Below are positions 59,448-64,000 of a stretch of DNA of 64,000 bases, piece after piece. Source of the DNA: Bacillota bacterium (GTDB taxonomy: Bacteria > Bacillota > Clostridia > Peptostreptococcales > Acidaminobacteraceae); NCBI GenBank assembly GCA_024636005.1, contig JAGXHV010000032.1:38201-102200 (forward strand), in the 5' to 3' direction. The position numbers were made by a program, and so were the translations under genes. Position 1 is the first letter of the stretch. Each line of letters starts with the position of its first letter. Below the pieces are notes generated by a model, which was not told where the DNA came from, did not search any database, and saw nothing but the letters and a program-made list of their open reading frames with translations.

Positions 59448-59492
59448 CTGAGACGCTAATAAGTTTCCTTCGGAAACTTAACTACGCGAAAA
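59448..59492 (+). repeat. Dispersed intergenic hairpin repeat, copy 4
   Basis: Same as copy 1, including CTGAGACGC before and loop TTC. The sequence CAATATTTCCGC occurs before the repeat (59387-59398) and again within the following terminator stem (59503-59514). Confidence 0.85.
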
Positions 59493-59548
59493 ACAAGAGC
59501 TTCAATATTTCCGCATCGCGGAAATAAATATTGAAGCTCTTGTTTTTT
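59489..59548 (+). terminator. Very long-stemmed bidirectional terminator
   Basis: AACAAGAGCTTCAATATT and TCCGC pair with GCGGA and AATATTGAAGCTCTTGTT, about 23 bp with a 4-nt bulge, then T-run. Convergent end of the Crp/Fnr gene. Confidence 0.9.
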
Positions 59549-60263
59549 ACATTTCAAAATAATCTTGGTCAACGATAAGAAGTTGTTTGTTTTCAAGTAT
59601 CTCGAGAACGCCCTCGCCAGAAAGGTGAGAAAGTTTTCTGCTGATGGTCTCACGCGTGACACCAACGAAATTGGCCATATCCTCACGTGTCAATTGGAGA
59701 CTGATTAGAATTCCCTTTGATGTGGTCGATCCGGATTGTTTCATCAGGCGATGAATCAGGAATCTGAGTCTGATGTCCGCATCGTTCGAAGCGATGGCGC
59801 CGACCAACTTTTCAAGTGAAGAGATTTTTTCATGAGCCGATTCGAGAATAGCAAATACTATTTCAGGGTTCTCGTTGATGAATACATCAAATCTGTATTT
59901 GGGAATCGTGCAGATGAAGCACTCCTTGAGTGCGATGAGATCATAAGGGGAGGCCACTTTTTTGAGAAGTGACAATTCTCCCAGACTATCGCCATCATTA
60001 AGGATATAGAGAATCTGCTCCTTACCGTCTTCGTTATAGGTGGACGCCTTAAGGCTACCGTGATTGACAATATAAAGTCTGTCAAAATCATCGCCTGTAT
60101 GCATGACAACTTCACCTTTTTTGTAATGTTTGCGTTCTATGAGACTTAGGAGCGTCTGAATTTGATCATCGTTAAGATTGGAGAATAGGGATACTTTTTT
60201 GGTGCATAGTTTATCGCCGCAAGTCACACAGCCGTCCATCGGGAAATGAATTGTATGCTTCAA
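59547..60263 (-). CDS. Crp/Fnr-family transcriptional regulator with N-terminal cysteines
   Basis: 238 residues. N terminus with Cys residues at positions 12, 15 and 20 (CVTCGDKLC), the cyclic-nucleotide-like domain (VMHTGDDFDRLYIVNHGSLK), and HTH LTREDMANFVGVTRETISRKL. The RETISR recognition helix shares Arg and Glu with CRP (RETVGR), consistent with a TGTGA half-site. The cysteines suggest Fe-S or thiol sensing. It starts at TTG 60263 after ataggaggt. Divergent from ric-fprA, with a TGTGA-N6-TCACA site between them. Confidence 0.9.
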   Translation of the reverse strand: MKHTIHFPMDGCVTCGDKLCTKKVSLFSNLNDDQIQTLLSLIERKHYKKGEVVMHTGDDFDRLYIVNHGSLKASTYNEDGKEQILYILNDGDSLGELSLLKKVASPYDLIALKECFICTIPKYRFDVFINENPEIVFAILESAHEKISSLEKLVGAIASNDADIRLRFLIHRLMKQSGSTTSKGILISLQLTREDMANFVGVTRETISRKLSHLSGEGVLEILENKQLLIVDQDYFEM

Positions 60264-60327
60264 TGAAGGCTTACCTCCTATATTTGGTTTTAAATAATTA
60301 TATCATATTTTCAGAAAAATTAGATTG

Positions 60328-60343
60328 TGTGAGGCAAATCACA
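60328..60343. promoter_or_regulatory. Crp/Fnr-type box of the ric-fprA promoter
   Basis: TGTGAGGCAAATCACA. With the -10 TAATAT at 60365-60370, the predicted start is near 60377, placing the box centre at about -41.5, the class II activation position. A second palindrome, CCTCCATATGGTGG (60351-60364), lies between box and -10. Confidence 0.65.
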
Positions 60344-60415
60344 TTTTGGTCCTCCATATGGTGGTAATATAAGTGCAAGAGATTACGATCATAAACAACC
60401 ATTTAGGAGGACGAT

Positions 60416-61093
60416 ATGAAAAAGCTTGACCTTAACCAGACTATTGGAGAAAGTGTTACGATTAACCCCGAACTTGTAAGGGTATACATGGATTACGGTG
60501 TGGATTTTTGCTGTGGTGGAGACAGAACCGTAAAGGAAGCAATTGAAAGAGATACCGATGAAGTTGAACAGTTGATTGCTGAAGCCGAGAAAGCAATGGA
60601 ACAGGCATCTCAATTCACTGTGGGTTCCAGCAGCATGAAATTGTCCGATTTTTCGACAGACCAACTGATCGATAGAATCGTGACCCAGCATCACAGTTAC
60701 CTAAAATCTGAACTTCCCATCATCTCAGAGTTGATGTTCAAGATTTTGATGGTACACGGAGATAATCATCCTGAACTTTTTGAGATTCACAAAGTGTTTG
60801 GTGGTTTGAAGACAGAACTGGAAGGACATCTCGTCAAAGAAGAAAGAATGCTTTTCCCAAAACTTAGGGCAAATGATCCTGATTGCAAGGCACTCATCGA
60901 AGAACTTGAAGCGGAACATGACGGAGCAGGAGATGCACTTCATCAACTTACGGATTTGACGGATCATTTCAAATTGCCTGAAGACGCTTGTACAACCTAT
61001 CAAATGGTCTATGAAAAACTAAAGGTATTAGTGGCGGATATGTACATGCACGTACATACCGAAAACAATGTATTATTTAAAAGATTTGCGTAG
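60416..61093 (+). CDS. Ric (ScdA/YtfE)-type iron-sulfur cluster repair di-iron protein
   Basis: 225 residues. ScdA_N domain at about 1-60 with VDFCCGGDRTV (conserved Cys pair) and a hemerythrin-like domain at about 80-220 whose His/Glu ligands are in IVTQHHSYLKSE, HGDNHPELF, GHLVKEERMLFP, EAEHDGAGDAL and MHVHTENN. Ric repairs Fe-S clusters damaged by nitric oxide or peroxide. ATG after ttaggaggacga. It is first in a two-gene unit with fprA, apparently activated by the divergent Crp/Fnr protein. Confidence 0.93.
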   Translation: MKKLDLNQTIGESVTINPELVRVYMDYGVDFCCGGDRTVKEAIERDTDEVEQLIAEAEKAMEQASQFTVGSSSMKLSDFSTDQLIDRIVTQHHSYLKSELPIISELMFKILMVHGDNHPELFEIHKVFGGLKTELEGHLVKEERMLFPKLRANDPDCKALIEELEAEHDGAGDALHQLTDLTDHFKLPEDACTTYQMVYEKLKVLVADMYMHVHTENNVLFKRFA

Positions 61094-61107
61094 AAAGGGG
61101 TATAATA

Positions 61108-62292
61108 ATGTTCAAAATTAATGAGAGAATCAAATGGGTAGGAAAAATCGACTGGGATTTAAAGAAATTTCACGGTGAAGAGTATTCCACACACAGAGGA
61201 TCATCATACAATTCATATCTGATTGAAGATGAGAAAACCGTTTTGATCGATACCGTGTGGCAACCATTTGATGAAGAATTTGTTAGAGATCTTAAAAAAG
61301 TCATCGATCTTAAGAAAATTGATTACATCATCGCCAACCATGCTGAAGTGGACCACAGTGGTGGATTGCCCGAACTCATGAAAGAAATTCCGGGCACACC
61401 TATCTATTGTACTGCAAATGGCATCAAGTCACTCAAAGGCCATTATCACGAAGATTGGAACTTCATACCTGTAAAAACAGGCGATACTCTTGATTTGGGT
61501 GAGGGTAAAATAATCTTCATTGAAGCGCCAATGCTTCACTGGCCAGACAGCATGTTCTCATATTATACAAAAGATGCCATCCTTTTCAGTAATGATGCAT
61601 TTGGACAGCACTATGCTTCAGAATTCATGTACAATGATCTTGTAGATCAAGCAGAGCTTTATCAAGAAGCTATTAAGTATTATGCCAATATTTTGACACC
61701 TTTTAGTCCGCTTGTTATAAAGAAAATTCATGAAGTGCTCGGGTTTGATGTTCCTGTCAATATGGTATGTCCATCACATGGTATTATGTGGCGAGATAAT
61801 CCAACTCAAATTGTAACACAGTATCTTGAGTGGGCAGATAACTATCAAGAACACCAAGTAACATTATTATATGATACTATGTGGGATGCGACGAAAAAAA
61901 TGGCGGAAGCGATTGCTGAGGGTATCAAGTCTGTGGATCCAACTCTAAACATCAAGCTTTTCAACGTTGGCAAAGCAGATAAGAATGATGTGATTTCAGA
62001 AGTCTTCAAAGCTAAACTCATCGTTGCGGGATCTTCAACCATTAACAAAGGTATTTTGTCCGGAATGGCAGCCACAATTGAAATGATGAAAGGTCTCAAG
62101 TTTAAAAATAAGAAAGCTGCCGGTTTCGGCAGCTATGGTTGGAGTGGTGAATCTCCAAAATTGATGACTAAAGAACTCGAAGCTTGTGGCTTTGAAATTC
62201 TTGAAGAAGGACTCGGTGTCCTTTGGAAACCAGATGAGGAAGCACTGGATTTATGCAGGGCGTATGGCGTGAAACTCGCTGAAAAATTATAA
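61108..62292 (+). CDS. FprA-type flavodiiron protein (NO/O2 reductase)
   Basis: 394 residues: an N-terminal MBL-like di-iron domain (ligands in NHAEVDHSGG and later SNDAFGQHYAS, VCPSHGIMW) and a C-terminal flavodoxin domain (LYDTMWDATKKMA FMN loop, GSYGWSGESP). It reduces O2 to water or NO to N2O with electrons from rubredoxin or similar carriers; no rubredoxin gene is in the window. Start ATG after aaaggggta, 14 nt behind ric. The overlap of its stop with the ABC-F stop on the other strand is 6 nt. Confidence 0.94.
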   Translation: MFKINERIKWVGKIDWDLKKFHGEEYSTHRGSSYNSYLIEDEKTVLIDTVWQPFDEEFVRDLKKVIDLKKIDYIIANHAEVDHSGGLPELMKEIPGTPIYCTANGIKSLKGHYHEDWNFIPVKTGDTLDLGEGKIIFIEAPMLHWPDSMFSYYTKDAILFSNDAFGQHYASEFMYNDLVDQAELYQEAIKYYANILTPFSPLVIKKIHEVLGFDVPVNMVCPSHGIMWRDNPTQIVTQYLEWADNYQEHQVTLLYDTMWDATKKMAEAIAEGIKSVDPTLNIKLFNVGKADKNDVISEVFKAKLIVAGSSTINKGILSGMAATIEMMKGLKFKNKKAAGFGSYGWSGESPKLMTKELEACGFEILEEGLGVLWKPDEEALDLCRAYGVKLAEKL

Positions 62293-63753
62293 TGTGACAA
62301 AAGTTGTTCCAATGCTTTCGATGAAAGAAGCATCGTGCTCAACAAGAATCATACTAGGAGCGTATTTTAAAATCATATCTTCCAGTTGAAGTCTGGAGAG
62401 AACGTCAACGTAATTTAACGGTTCATCCCAAATATATAAATGTGCTCTTTCGCAAATACTTTTTGCGAGGAGCACTTTTTTCTTTTGGCCCGCACTCAAG
62501 TTTTCCATTCTCTTATCAAATTGAATTTCAGTAAAATCAAGCTTGCTCAGTATGGATTTAAAGAGGGCGGGATCGACGTTTTGTTCGAGCGCATAGTTTT
62601 GAAAATCACCTTTCAAATGTGAGGTGTCCTGTGGTACATATGAAATGACTAACCCGGATGCATGTTTGATTGTACCTGATTTTGGAAGCGTTAGTCCAAT
62701 CAAGGCTTTTAAAAGTGTTGACTTTCCAGATCCATTTTTCCCTTTGAGAACAATGCGTTCCCCTTTTCTGAAATCCATGGAAAACTGTTCAATAACAGTG
62801 GAATCATTATAACCTAGTGTCAAATCTGATGCCTCAATCAAGTTTTCCTGATAGTGATCAATATGAAATAGTGCAATTGGATCGGCAGTTTCCAAATCCT
62901 TAAGAAGCATTGATTTTTCTAAAATGGAGTTTTCTCTCCGTTTGGCAATAGCTTTTGCCCGTTTCATAAGTTTGGCTGATTTGTGACCGATGTAGCCTTT
63001 GTTGACTCCTCGGGTGCCATATTTAGTTTTTTCAACATCGTGTGACCATCCTTCTGTTCGCTTGATGGCTATTTGGAGACGCTCGACATCTTTTTGAAGC
63101 TTTAGGTTTTCTTCAATCTCAAATTGGTCCTGATAGGCCTTGTTCTTTTGCCATGAAGAAAAGTTCCCCTTTTGGATTTCAATCTTTGTTTTGTTGATGG
63201 ATAGAATATGATCAATGCATCCATCAAGGAACTTTCTGTCGTGAGATATGACGATAAACCCTTTTTTGCAGTTCAAATAGTCGCTCACAATCATACGCCC
63301 TATCTCATCCAGATGGGTTGTCGGTTCGTCGATCAATAAAAAATGATTGTCTTTCGTAAAAAGTATCGCGAGCATGATCTTTGTCTGTTCACCTTGGCTG
63401 AGTGTATCAAATGGACGATCTAGAATTTCTTCTTGTAAGTTCAGAAATGAAAATTCACGGCAAATTTCCCAGTTCTCAGCACTTGGATTAATGTTTTTGA
63501 TGATATTGATCGTAAGTTCATTGGGATTAATGATTTCAAAAGGGAAGTAATCAAATTTTACTGAAGCTTGAATAGCTCCCCGGTATTCATAATCGCCCAT
63601 CATCAGTTTCATAAATGTGGTTTTACCTCGACCGTTACGTCCTGTAAATCCTAGTTTCCAATCAGTATCCATCTGGAAACTGACATTTTCAAAAATATTA
63701 TCATAATTGCCATCGTAGGCAAATGTTAAATTGGCTATGTTAATCAGTGACAT
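62287..63753 (-). CDS. ABC-F family ATPase, Lsa-like (ribosome protection type)
   Basis: 488 residues with two NBDs: GRNGRGKTT, LSQGEQTKIML, LLIDEPTTHLD and GKNGSGKST, LSAGQKKKVLL, YIWDEPLNYVD. There are no membrane domains. Between them is the linker (about residues 185-300) that reaches the ribosomal exit-tunnel region in resistance ABC-Fs. Overall resemblance is to the Lsa/CplR group, which confers lincosamide, streptogramin A and pleuromutilin resistance; the actual phenotype is unknown. The ATG at 63753 follows taggaggtgg; the 31 extra residues of the track ORF cross the leader hairpin and are rejected. An attenuator leader precedes it. Confidence 0.9.
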   Translation of the reverse strand: MSLINIANLTFAYDGNYDNIFENVSFQMDTDWKLGFTGRNGRGKTTFMKLMMGDYEYRGAIQASVKFDYFPFEIINPNELTINIIKNINPSAENWEICREFSFLNLQEEILDRPFDTLSQGEQTKIMLAILFTKDNHFLLIDEPTTHLDEIGRMIVSDYLNCKKGFIVISHDRKFLDGCIDHILSINKTKIEIQKGNFSSWQKNKAYQDQFEIEENLKLQKDVERLQIAIKRTEGWSHDVEKTKYGTRGVNKGYIGHKSAKLMKRAKAIAKRRENSILEKSMLLKDLETADPIALFHIDHYQENLIEASDLTLGYNDSTVIEQFSMDFRKGERIVLKGKNGSGKSTLLKALIGLTLPKSGTIKHASGLVISYVPQDTSHLKGDFQNYALEQNVDPALFKSILSKLDFTEIQFDKRMENLSAGQKKKVLLAKSICERAHLYIWDEPLNYVDVLSRLQLEDMILKYAPSMILVEHDASFIESIGTTFVTL

Positions 63754-63771
63754 AGCACCACCTCCTAATCG

Positions 63772-63810
63772 TAAAAAAAAAGACCCTGGAAAGTTGTTTT
63801 CCTGAGTCTT
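63772..63810 (-). promoter_or_regulatory. Transcription attenuator in the ABC-F leader
   Basis: On the minus strand AAGACTCAGGAAA, loop ACAAC, TTTCCAGGGTCTT and nine T: a full terminator directly before the ribosome binding site. GAAAGTTG at 63878-63885 is complementary to CAACTTTC in the terminator loop and right arm, a ready antiterminator pairing. Confidence 0.7.
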
Positions 63811-63909
63811 AACCATCAAAAATAGGCTGTGCCATAAAATGTACACAGGTAATAAGCCTTATAAATGAGTGTTTCAGCAACTTTCTCGCATGAGCATGAC
63901 AAAAAAAGG

Positions 63910-63921
63910 TCAATAAACCAT
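63910..63921 (-). CDS. Leader micro-ORF (MVY) of the ABC-F attenuator
   Basis: ATG GTT TAT TGA with ggag 8 nt upstream. Three codons long, followed 24 nt later by the antiterminator arm. Resembles leader ORFs where antibiotic-stalled ribosomes control ABC-F genes. Confidence 0.45.
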   Translation of the reverse strand: MVY

Positions 63922-63947
63922 TGTCACATCTCCATTTAAATTAAATG

Positions 63948-63968
63948 TTAGCAAGAAATAATGCTCAT
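63948..63968 (-). CDS. Leader micro-ORF (MSIISC) of the ABC-F attenuator
   Basis: Six codons and TAA, with ggag 8 nt upstream. The preceding aaatggagatg also precedes the MVY ORF, so the two arose by duplication or share a binding site. A possible -10 (TAAAAT) is at 63992-63997 with the -35 beyond the window. Confidence 0.4.
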   Translation of the reverse strand: MSIISC

Positions 63969-64000
63969 CCTCTCATCTCCATTTCTAAGAAATTTTACCC

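Follow-up and report, generated by a model that had tools for sequence, protein, structure and literature searches.

Attenuators with a uORF are known for several ARE-ABCF genes, including vmlR (uORF MIN), cplR (MRI), lsaA (MAGN) and others (PMC9226507; PMC10201436). The vmlR gene of Bacillus subtilis is induced by lincosamides and pleuromutilins, and 30S toeprints on its uORF fall 16 nt 3' of the first base of the start codon (PMC9226507). In Clostridioides difficile, ribosomes stall on the short uORF of the cplR leader, which combines translational with transcriptional attenuation (PMC10201436). In the ARE5 leaders are5sc and tiaA of Streptomyces, lincosamides, pleuromutilins and streptogramin A hold ribosomes at the uORF start codon (PMC12421871).

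The window analyzed here, a stretch of 64,000 nt from a Bacillota bacterium (G000:C32:38201-102200), stops at position 64000 with the end of its contig, beyond which upstream sequence is unreadable; the region preceding the leader was sought on other contigs of the same genome and was not found there. On the minus strand, a leader spanning 63998-63754 lies ahead of an Lsa-like ABC-F gene. We conclude that this leader is very probably a ribosome-controlled transcription attenuator of the gene, with a 1:2/2:4/3:4 switch that would be released by start-codon arrest. The earlier note had already proposed a ribosome-controlled attenuator at this position, and the anatomy and conservation of the sequence support that proposal. 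Anatomy, conservation, covariation and the association with ABC-F genes were each observed here.

The 488-residue product of the gene scores above the cutoff of the NCBIfam model ribo_prot_ABC_F (434 bits, cutoff 380), and among solved structures it is closest to Lsa(A) (7nhk). Its best specific model, ABCF_Lsa_all (NF000167), gives 663.7 bits, below the curated cutoff of 750, and the protein is 55.5% identical to Lsa(E) and 51% identical to Lsa(B). For these reasons we class it from its sequence as Lsa-like, outside the named Lsa proteins. Its neighbors at window 59547-62292 encode a flavorubredoxin-like NO reductase flavoprotein, a RIC-type iron-sulfur repair protein and a Crp/Fnr regulator, likely a nitric-oxide stress cluster. 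A long near-perfect inverted repeat (AAAAACAAGAGCTTCAATATTT...AAATATTGAAGCTCTTGTTTTT) at window 59485-59552, at the end of the Crp/Fnr-type regulator gene, is probably a bidirectional terminator, and accounts for sub-threshold matches to Rfam microRNA families. The features of the gene and its leader are as follows.

62287..63753, minus strand: Lsa-like ABC-F ribosome protection protein, 488 aa (NCBIfam profile scores, structure match, Lsa(E) identity)
63751..63767, minus strand: Shine-Dalgarno (SD) sequence and start codon of the ABC-F gene (ATG at 63753, AGGAGGT at 63766-63760; full-leader fold)
63773..63781, minus strand: terminator U-tract (direct reading)
63780..63810, minus strand: intrinsic terminator hairpin, boxes 3 and 4 (-12.6 kcal/mol, then 9 U)
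63789..63796, minus strand: box 4 (CAACTTTC), in the loop and 3' arm of the terminator; complement of GAAAGTTG (sequence; leader comparison)
63824..63859, minus strand: middle hairpin (AGGC...TGTG / CACA...GCCT), within the antiterminator loop, with a T-rich stretch 3' of it (fold)
63878..63885, minus strand: antiterminator arm (GAAAGTTG), 3' portion of box 2 and partner of box 4 (score reached by 11/3000 shuffles)
63882..63889, minus strand: box 2 core (GCGAGAAA), partner of box 1 (complementarity, shuffles, covariation)
63895..63928, minus strand: P2 apical hairpin (TGTGACAA ... TTGTCATG), between boxes 1 and 2 and enclosing uORF2 (two-sided changes at 8/9 pairs)
63921-63910, minus strand: uORF2, MVY (ATGGTTTATTGA), inside P2 (GGAG 8 nt 5' of ATG)
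63951..63958, minus strand: box 1 (TTTCTTGC), strand 1 of the anti-antiterminator, within uORF1 (8 bp with box 2)
63948..63968, minus strand: uORF1, MSIISC-stop (ATGAGCATTATTTCTTGCTAA) (GGAG 8 nt 5' of ATG; conserved)
63969..63980, minus strand: Shine-Dalgarno region of uORF1 (GGAGATGAGAGG) (direct reading; SD kept in the leader alignment)

Compared by layout, this leader resembles that of vmlR, with a tiny uORF in an anti-antiterminator stem, a middle hairpin, an antiterminator, an intrinsic terminator and a possible SD-blocking hairpin (PMC9226507). It differs in that vmlR belongs to the ARE2 subfamily and has another uORF, whereas in the family of the window the uORF codons themselves form the conserved strand TTTCTTGC and the peptide usually ends in Ser-Cys. 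With cplR it shares a clostridial ARE-ABCF gene, a short uORF and a terminator before the gene; cplR, however, is an ARE1 gene, its terminator stem itself contains the SD of the gene, and its uORF consensus is MR[I/M] (PMC10201436). The lsaA leader precedes a gene of the same Lsa/ARE3 subfamily and has a predicted short uORF (PMC10201436), and is set apart from ours by published consensus alone, MAGN as against M-x-x-[F/I]-S-C. The plasmid genes lsa(B) and lsa(E) (L092 and L091) are 51-55% identical to the gene of the window, but their upstream regions have no match to our leader model R1 (described below): lsa(E) has IS1216 ~190 bp upstream, and the upstream layout of lsa(B) differs from that of the window. 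The are5sc and tiaA leaders use a terminator/antiterminator switch, as we propose here, but they precede actinobacterial ARE5 genes and have the unrelated uORFs MLV and MVGDDDISG (PMC12421871).

The terminator reported in the earlier note, just before the ABC-F start, is present in full (63810-63780), and so is the complementarity that it described between GAAAGTTG (63885-63878) and CAACTTTC (63796-63789). An element absent from that note is that the codons of uORF1 are themselves the anti-antiterminator strand: TTTCTTGC pairs with GCGAGAAA, which overlaps the antiterminator arm, so that the position of the ribosome is coupled to termination. The leader thus has three mutually exclusive pairings, 1:2 (anti-antiterminator), 2:4 (antiterminator) and 3:4 (terminator). 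Pairing of GAAAGTTG with CAACTTTC was matched in 11 of 3000 shuffles and that of box 1 with box 2 in 30 of 3000, and dinucleotide shuffles of the leader held two SD-led micro-ORFs in 1.25% of cases and one in 14%; singly, these frequencies are not compelling, and conservation is the stronger evidence. A simple terminator scan and a promoter scan missed these features because their definitions were strict, and Rfam 15 gave no covariance-model match in the leader at E<=1.

We gathered homologs of the ABC-F protein by protein similarity and found that most have a uORF ending in [F/I/V/T]-S-C-(K/R)-stop upstream, with peptides that include MINFSC, MRNFSC, MYNFSCK, MKNFSCR, MRNISC and MNTISC. The earlier note did not recognize the leader peptides; MSIISC in fact falls in a broad M-x-x-[F/I/V/T]-S-C class, of which we found no report. 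The three-way arrangement is common to ~80 related leaders, compensatory changes included: a box 1 (TTTCTTGC) complementary to box 2 (GCAAGAAAGTTA) is found again and again, box 2 is in most leaders complementary also to box 4 (ACTTTCTTGC) in the 3' arm of the terminator, with 2:4 covariation judged by eye rather than formally counted, and almost all share the position of the terminator. We then built a covariance model, R1, of the leader from the SD to box 2, leaving out the terminator and the gene. Among 391 class-level genomes, 39 matched R1 at E<=0.001, and at each of the 30 top loci that were fetched an ABC-F gene begins a short way downstream, 29 of these genes being Lsa-like (48-58% identical, window included). 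The remaining locus, L146 (1410-1597, minus strand), has the same type of leader, with uORF MIIFSCK and terminator arm CTTTCCTGCGGC, ahead of an ABC-F gene only 28% identical to that of the window and nearer to the Msr/CplR/Vga models, which suggests that the RNA module moved between ABC-F subfamilies or arose twice. In the genome of the window, R1 matched only the window leader (E=1.9e-12); it found no second copy there, the next best match having E=0.56, and a second ABC-F gene of that genome (G000:C141:30270-31835, ~39% identical) lacks a leader of R1 type.

Some Lsa-like homologs, such as L010, L076, lsa(B) and lsa(E), have no R1-type leader. In six others (L068, L070, L071, L072, L078 and L080) the leader is very long, with the S-C attenuator ~385 nt upstream, and this clade has a second element near the gene containing CCGACTTTG or a close relative. 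A similar element also precedes lsa(E), lsa(B) and a Priestia lsa-like gene (L076, L091, L092, L093), hinting at a second, different control element. Judged by sequence, the RNA switch is conserved across many Clostridia and some Paenibacillus. The principle is already known from vmlR and cplR; what appears to be new is the RNA leader family before Lsa-like genes, which appears to be previously undescribed: searches of 5.39 million open-access papers for the leader peptide strings returned chance matches only, with supplementary files and subscription papers outside the search.

Alignment of 37 leaders (A1, in which the 5' P2 strand of the window was placed by eye rather than by MAFFT) supports the pairings. 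Box 1 and box 2 are paired in 99.3% of cells, with two-sided changes at three pairs, and the P2 hairpin has two-sided changes at 8 of its 9 pairs. The covariation score was 0.350, compared with 0.236 +/- 0.013 after shuffling and at most 0.180 with slid partners. Box 2 was located by maximizing its complementarity to box 1, which favors pairing as such; less affected by this bias are the compensatory variants and the shuffles of box 1 in register among leaders, where 381 of 384 pairs were observed against a maximum of 377 in 5000 shuffles, a count that is not a probability since the leaders are related by descent. The compensatory pairs are TTTCTTAC/GTAAGAAA in L012, TTTCCTGC/GCAGGAAA in L013 and L022, TTTCCCGC/GCGGGAAT in L024, and CTTCTTGC/GCAAGAAG in L089 and L105.

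A sister leader, L005 from Clostridiales bacterium SMBSF52, precedes an ABC-F protein 91% identical to that of the window and can be aligned with the window leader, from which it differs over 249 nt by 14 substitutions and one U-tract indel. Neither box 2 nor box 4 differs between the two, the terminator has an energy of -12.8 kcal/mol in L005, and uORF1 carries a single change, TAA to TGA, that retains the stop. The SD of uORF1 reads GGGG in place of GGAG, and the 11-nt context aaatggagatg, which the earlier note had described as shared by the two micro-ORFs, is not retained. Immediately 5' of the L005 leader lies a putative promoter, TTGACA-17-TGGTAATCT (that is, TTGACA-17-TGG-TAATCT), with the uORF downstream of it. 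Most related leaders likewise have a predicted sigma-70-like promoter, its -10 element ~30-45 nt 5' of the uORF ATG.

The sequences suggest that transcription of the gene probably depends on a drug stalling a ribosome on the tiny uORF. When drug is absent, ribosomes would quickly finish or leave the six-codon uORF, and box 1 (TTTCTTGC) would be free to pair with box 2 (GCGAGAAA) and sequester the antiterminator arm; with that arm held, the terminator (3:4) would form and transcription would end ~20-30 nt before the gene. A drug acting at the peptidyl-transferase center (lincosamide, pleuromutilin or streptogramin A) would arrest the ribosome at the uORF start codon, where it would cover box 1 and release box 2 to pair with a box 4 just emerging in the nascent RNA. 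With 2:4 formed there would be no terminator, and the ABC-F gene would be transcribed. In this scheme, how the gene responds to drug, where the ribosome is arrested and in what order the RNA folds are what we infer from the leader.

Modeled folding of 20 leaders is consistent with this switch. With box 1 free, 1:2 formed at 0.73-1.0 and 2:4 at near 0 (in the window, 1:2 at 0.99 and no 2:4). With a ribosome at the AUG and box 4 just emerged, 2:4 formed at 0.45-0.99 in 19 of 20 leaders, including 0.69-0.83 in the window; the modeled antiterminator is weak in L005 (0.08-0.30). At equilibrium, the completed terminator of the window beats the 8-bp antiterminator even with box 1 blocked. The switch in this leader must therefore be kinetic, and it stays hidden when the complete leader is folded at equilibrium. 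In L007, L027, L069 and L090, the model still favors the antiterminator once the terminator is complete. The modeled 8-bp antiterminator of the window is thus at the weak end of the leaders and would need a kinetic effect. By analogy with vmlR, pausing at the middle hairpin (63859-63824) and the T-rich sequence after it could supply this effect, the hairpin being a possible pause hairpin like vmlR SL-2.

Across the leaders the uORF consensus is M-x-x-[F/I]-S-C, and in 66 of the 80 leaders scanned with R1 the AUG lies exactly 10 nt before box 1, which is read in one frame to end in Ser-Cys or a close variant, with the stop within two codons and thus at most two further residues. This uniformity, together with a codon 3 that is often Asn, would fit arrest by a specific peptide, in which nascent M-x-x-[F/I]-S-C and the drug stall the ribosome on the Ser-Cys codons, much as the ErmCL or MsrDL leaders do. 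We nevertheless consider that reading unlikely. Our script scored 12 of the 80 leaders (~7 separate lineages, counted by eye, several of the leaders being from one genus) as having a uORF that stops before box 1, after MK, MI, MRK, MRN, MKL or M alone, yet they retain box 1, with offsets from 8 to 12 and not always in the same frame; L027 among them is better read as MEFSC. The peptide also changes along with the RNA pair, Cys being swapped for Tyr in L012 and for Arg in L024. Because natural truncations (MK, MI and MRN, each followed by a stop) retain the RNA box, the event sensed is most likely the arrest of ribosomes at the start codon, as occurs with lincosamides, pleuromutilins and streptogramin A. 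We infer that what is constrained is the RNA box together with its spacing from the AUG; a ribosome arrested on the start codon, with its edge at ~+16, would cover most of box 1, and the conserved peptide would be largely a by-product of the box. The Paenibacillus leaders L006 and L008 have a start codon followed immediately by a stop at the uORF position (ATGTAA and ATGTAG), possible start-stop uORFs, with box 1 retained. The TGC codon adjoining the stop is conserved, and a Cys-rich uORF attenuator is found ahead of cysS in Rhodobacterales (PMC8632094), as might be expected if a Cys codon before the stop sensed charged tRNA during Cys or Ser starvation. Such sensing is extremely improbable here: the leader stands before ABC-F resistance genes, not amino-acid genes, Cys-less uORFs occur within the same family, and the single Cys codon belongs to no conserved codon run and is missing in truncated or variant uORFs.

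Two further readings concern elements other than uORF1. The earlier note held that the leader contains two SD-led micro-ORFs; both are there, each with GGAG at 8 nt, and uORF1 is conserved, but MVY is not. A role for MVY as a second sensor alongside uORF1 would be in keeping with its SD and with the rarity of two such micro-ORFs in shuffles (1.25%), yet we find it very unlikely. In L005 its ATG is ACG, and uORF2 with its SD is the fastest-changing part of the leader, taking 5 of the 14 substitutions within 24 nt (P=0.006); the stretch is the conserved P2 hairpin, whose sequence varies among other leaders. On this divergence and location we reject uORF2 as a functional ORF. Control that is mainly translational, with drug-stalled ribosomes freeing the ABC-F SD and the terminator secondary, would be cplR-like, given the dual attenuation of that gene (PMC10201436). 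In the full-length folds of both the window and its sister, 63836-63823 pairs with the ABC-F start codon and its SD, and this helix crosses the 2:4 helix and is incompatible with it, so that an additional translational layer of control is possible in the model. As the main mechanism, translation is improbable, for the terminator is conserved, with a full U-tract and with box 4 in its 3' arm.

On balance, we lean towards viewing transcription attenuation by start-codon arrest as the property of an undescribed cis-regulatory RNA family, found in about one in ten of the Clostridia genomes sampled and also in Paenibacillus, that responds to start-codon arrest whatever the peptide, with M-x-x-F/I-S-C as a by-product of a box fixed 10 nt from the AUG, and that serves more than one ABC-F subfamily (L146). 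The R1 model finds Lsa-like resistance genes with no recourse to the protein. Thanks to the natural uORF truncations, constraint on the RNA can be told apart from constraint on the leader "peptide", which bears on the interpretation of regulatory uORFs that are predicted because their peptides are conserved. Together, the leaders provide a testable rule for how intrinsic resistance genes against lincosamides, pleuromutilins and streptogramin A may switch on in gut and environmental Clostridia.
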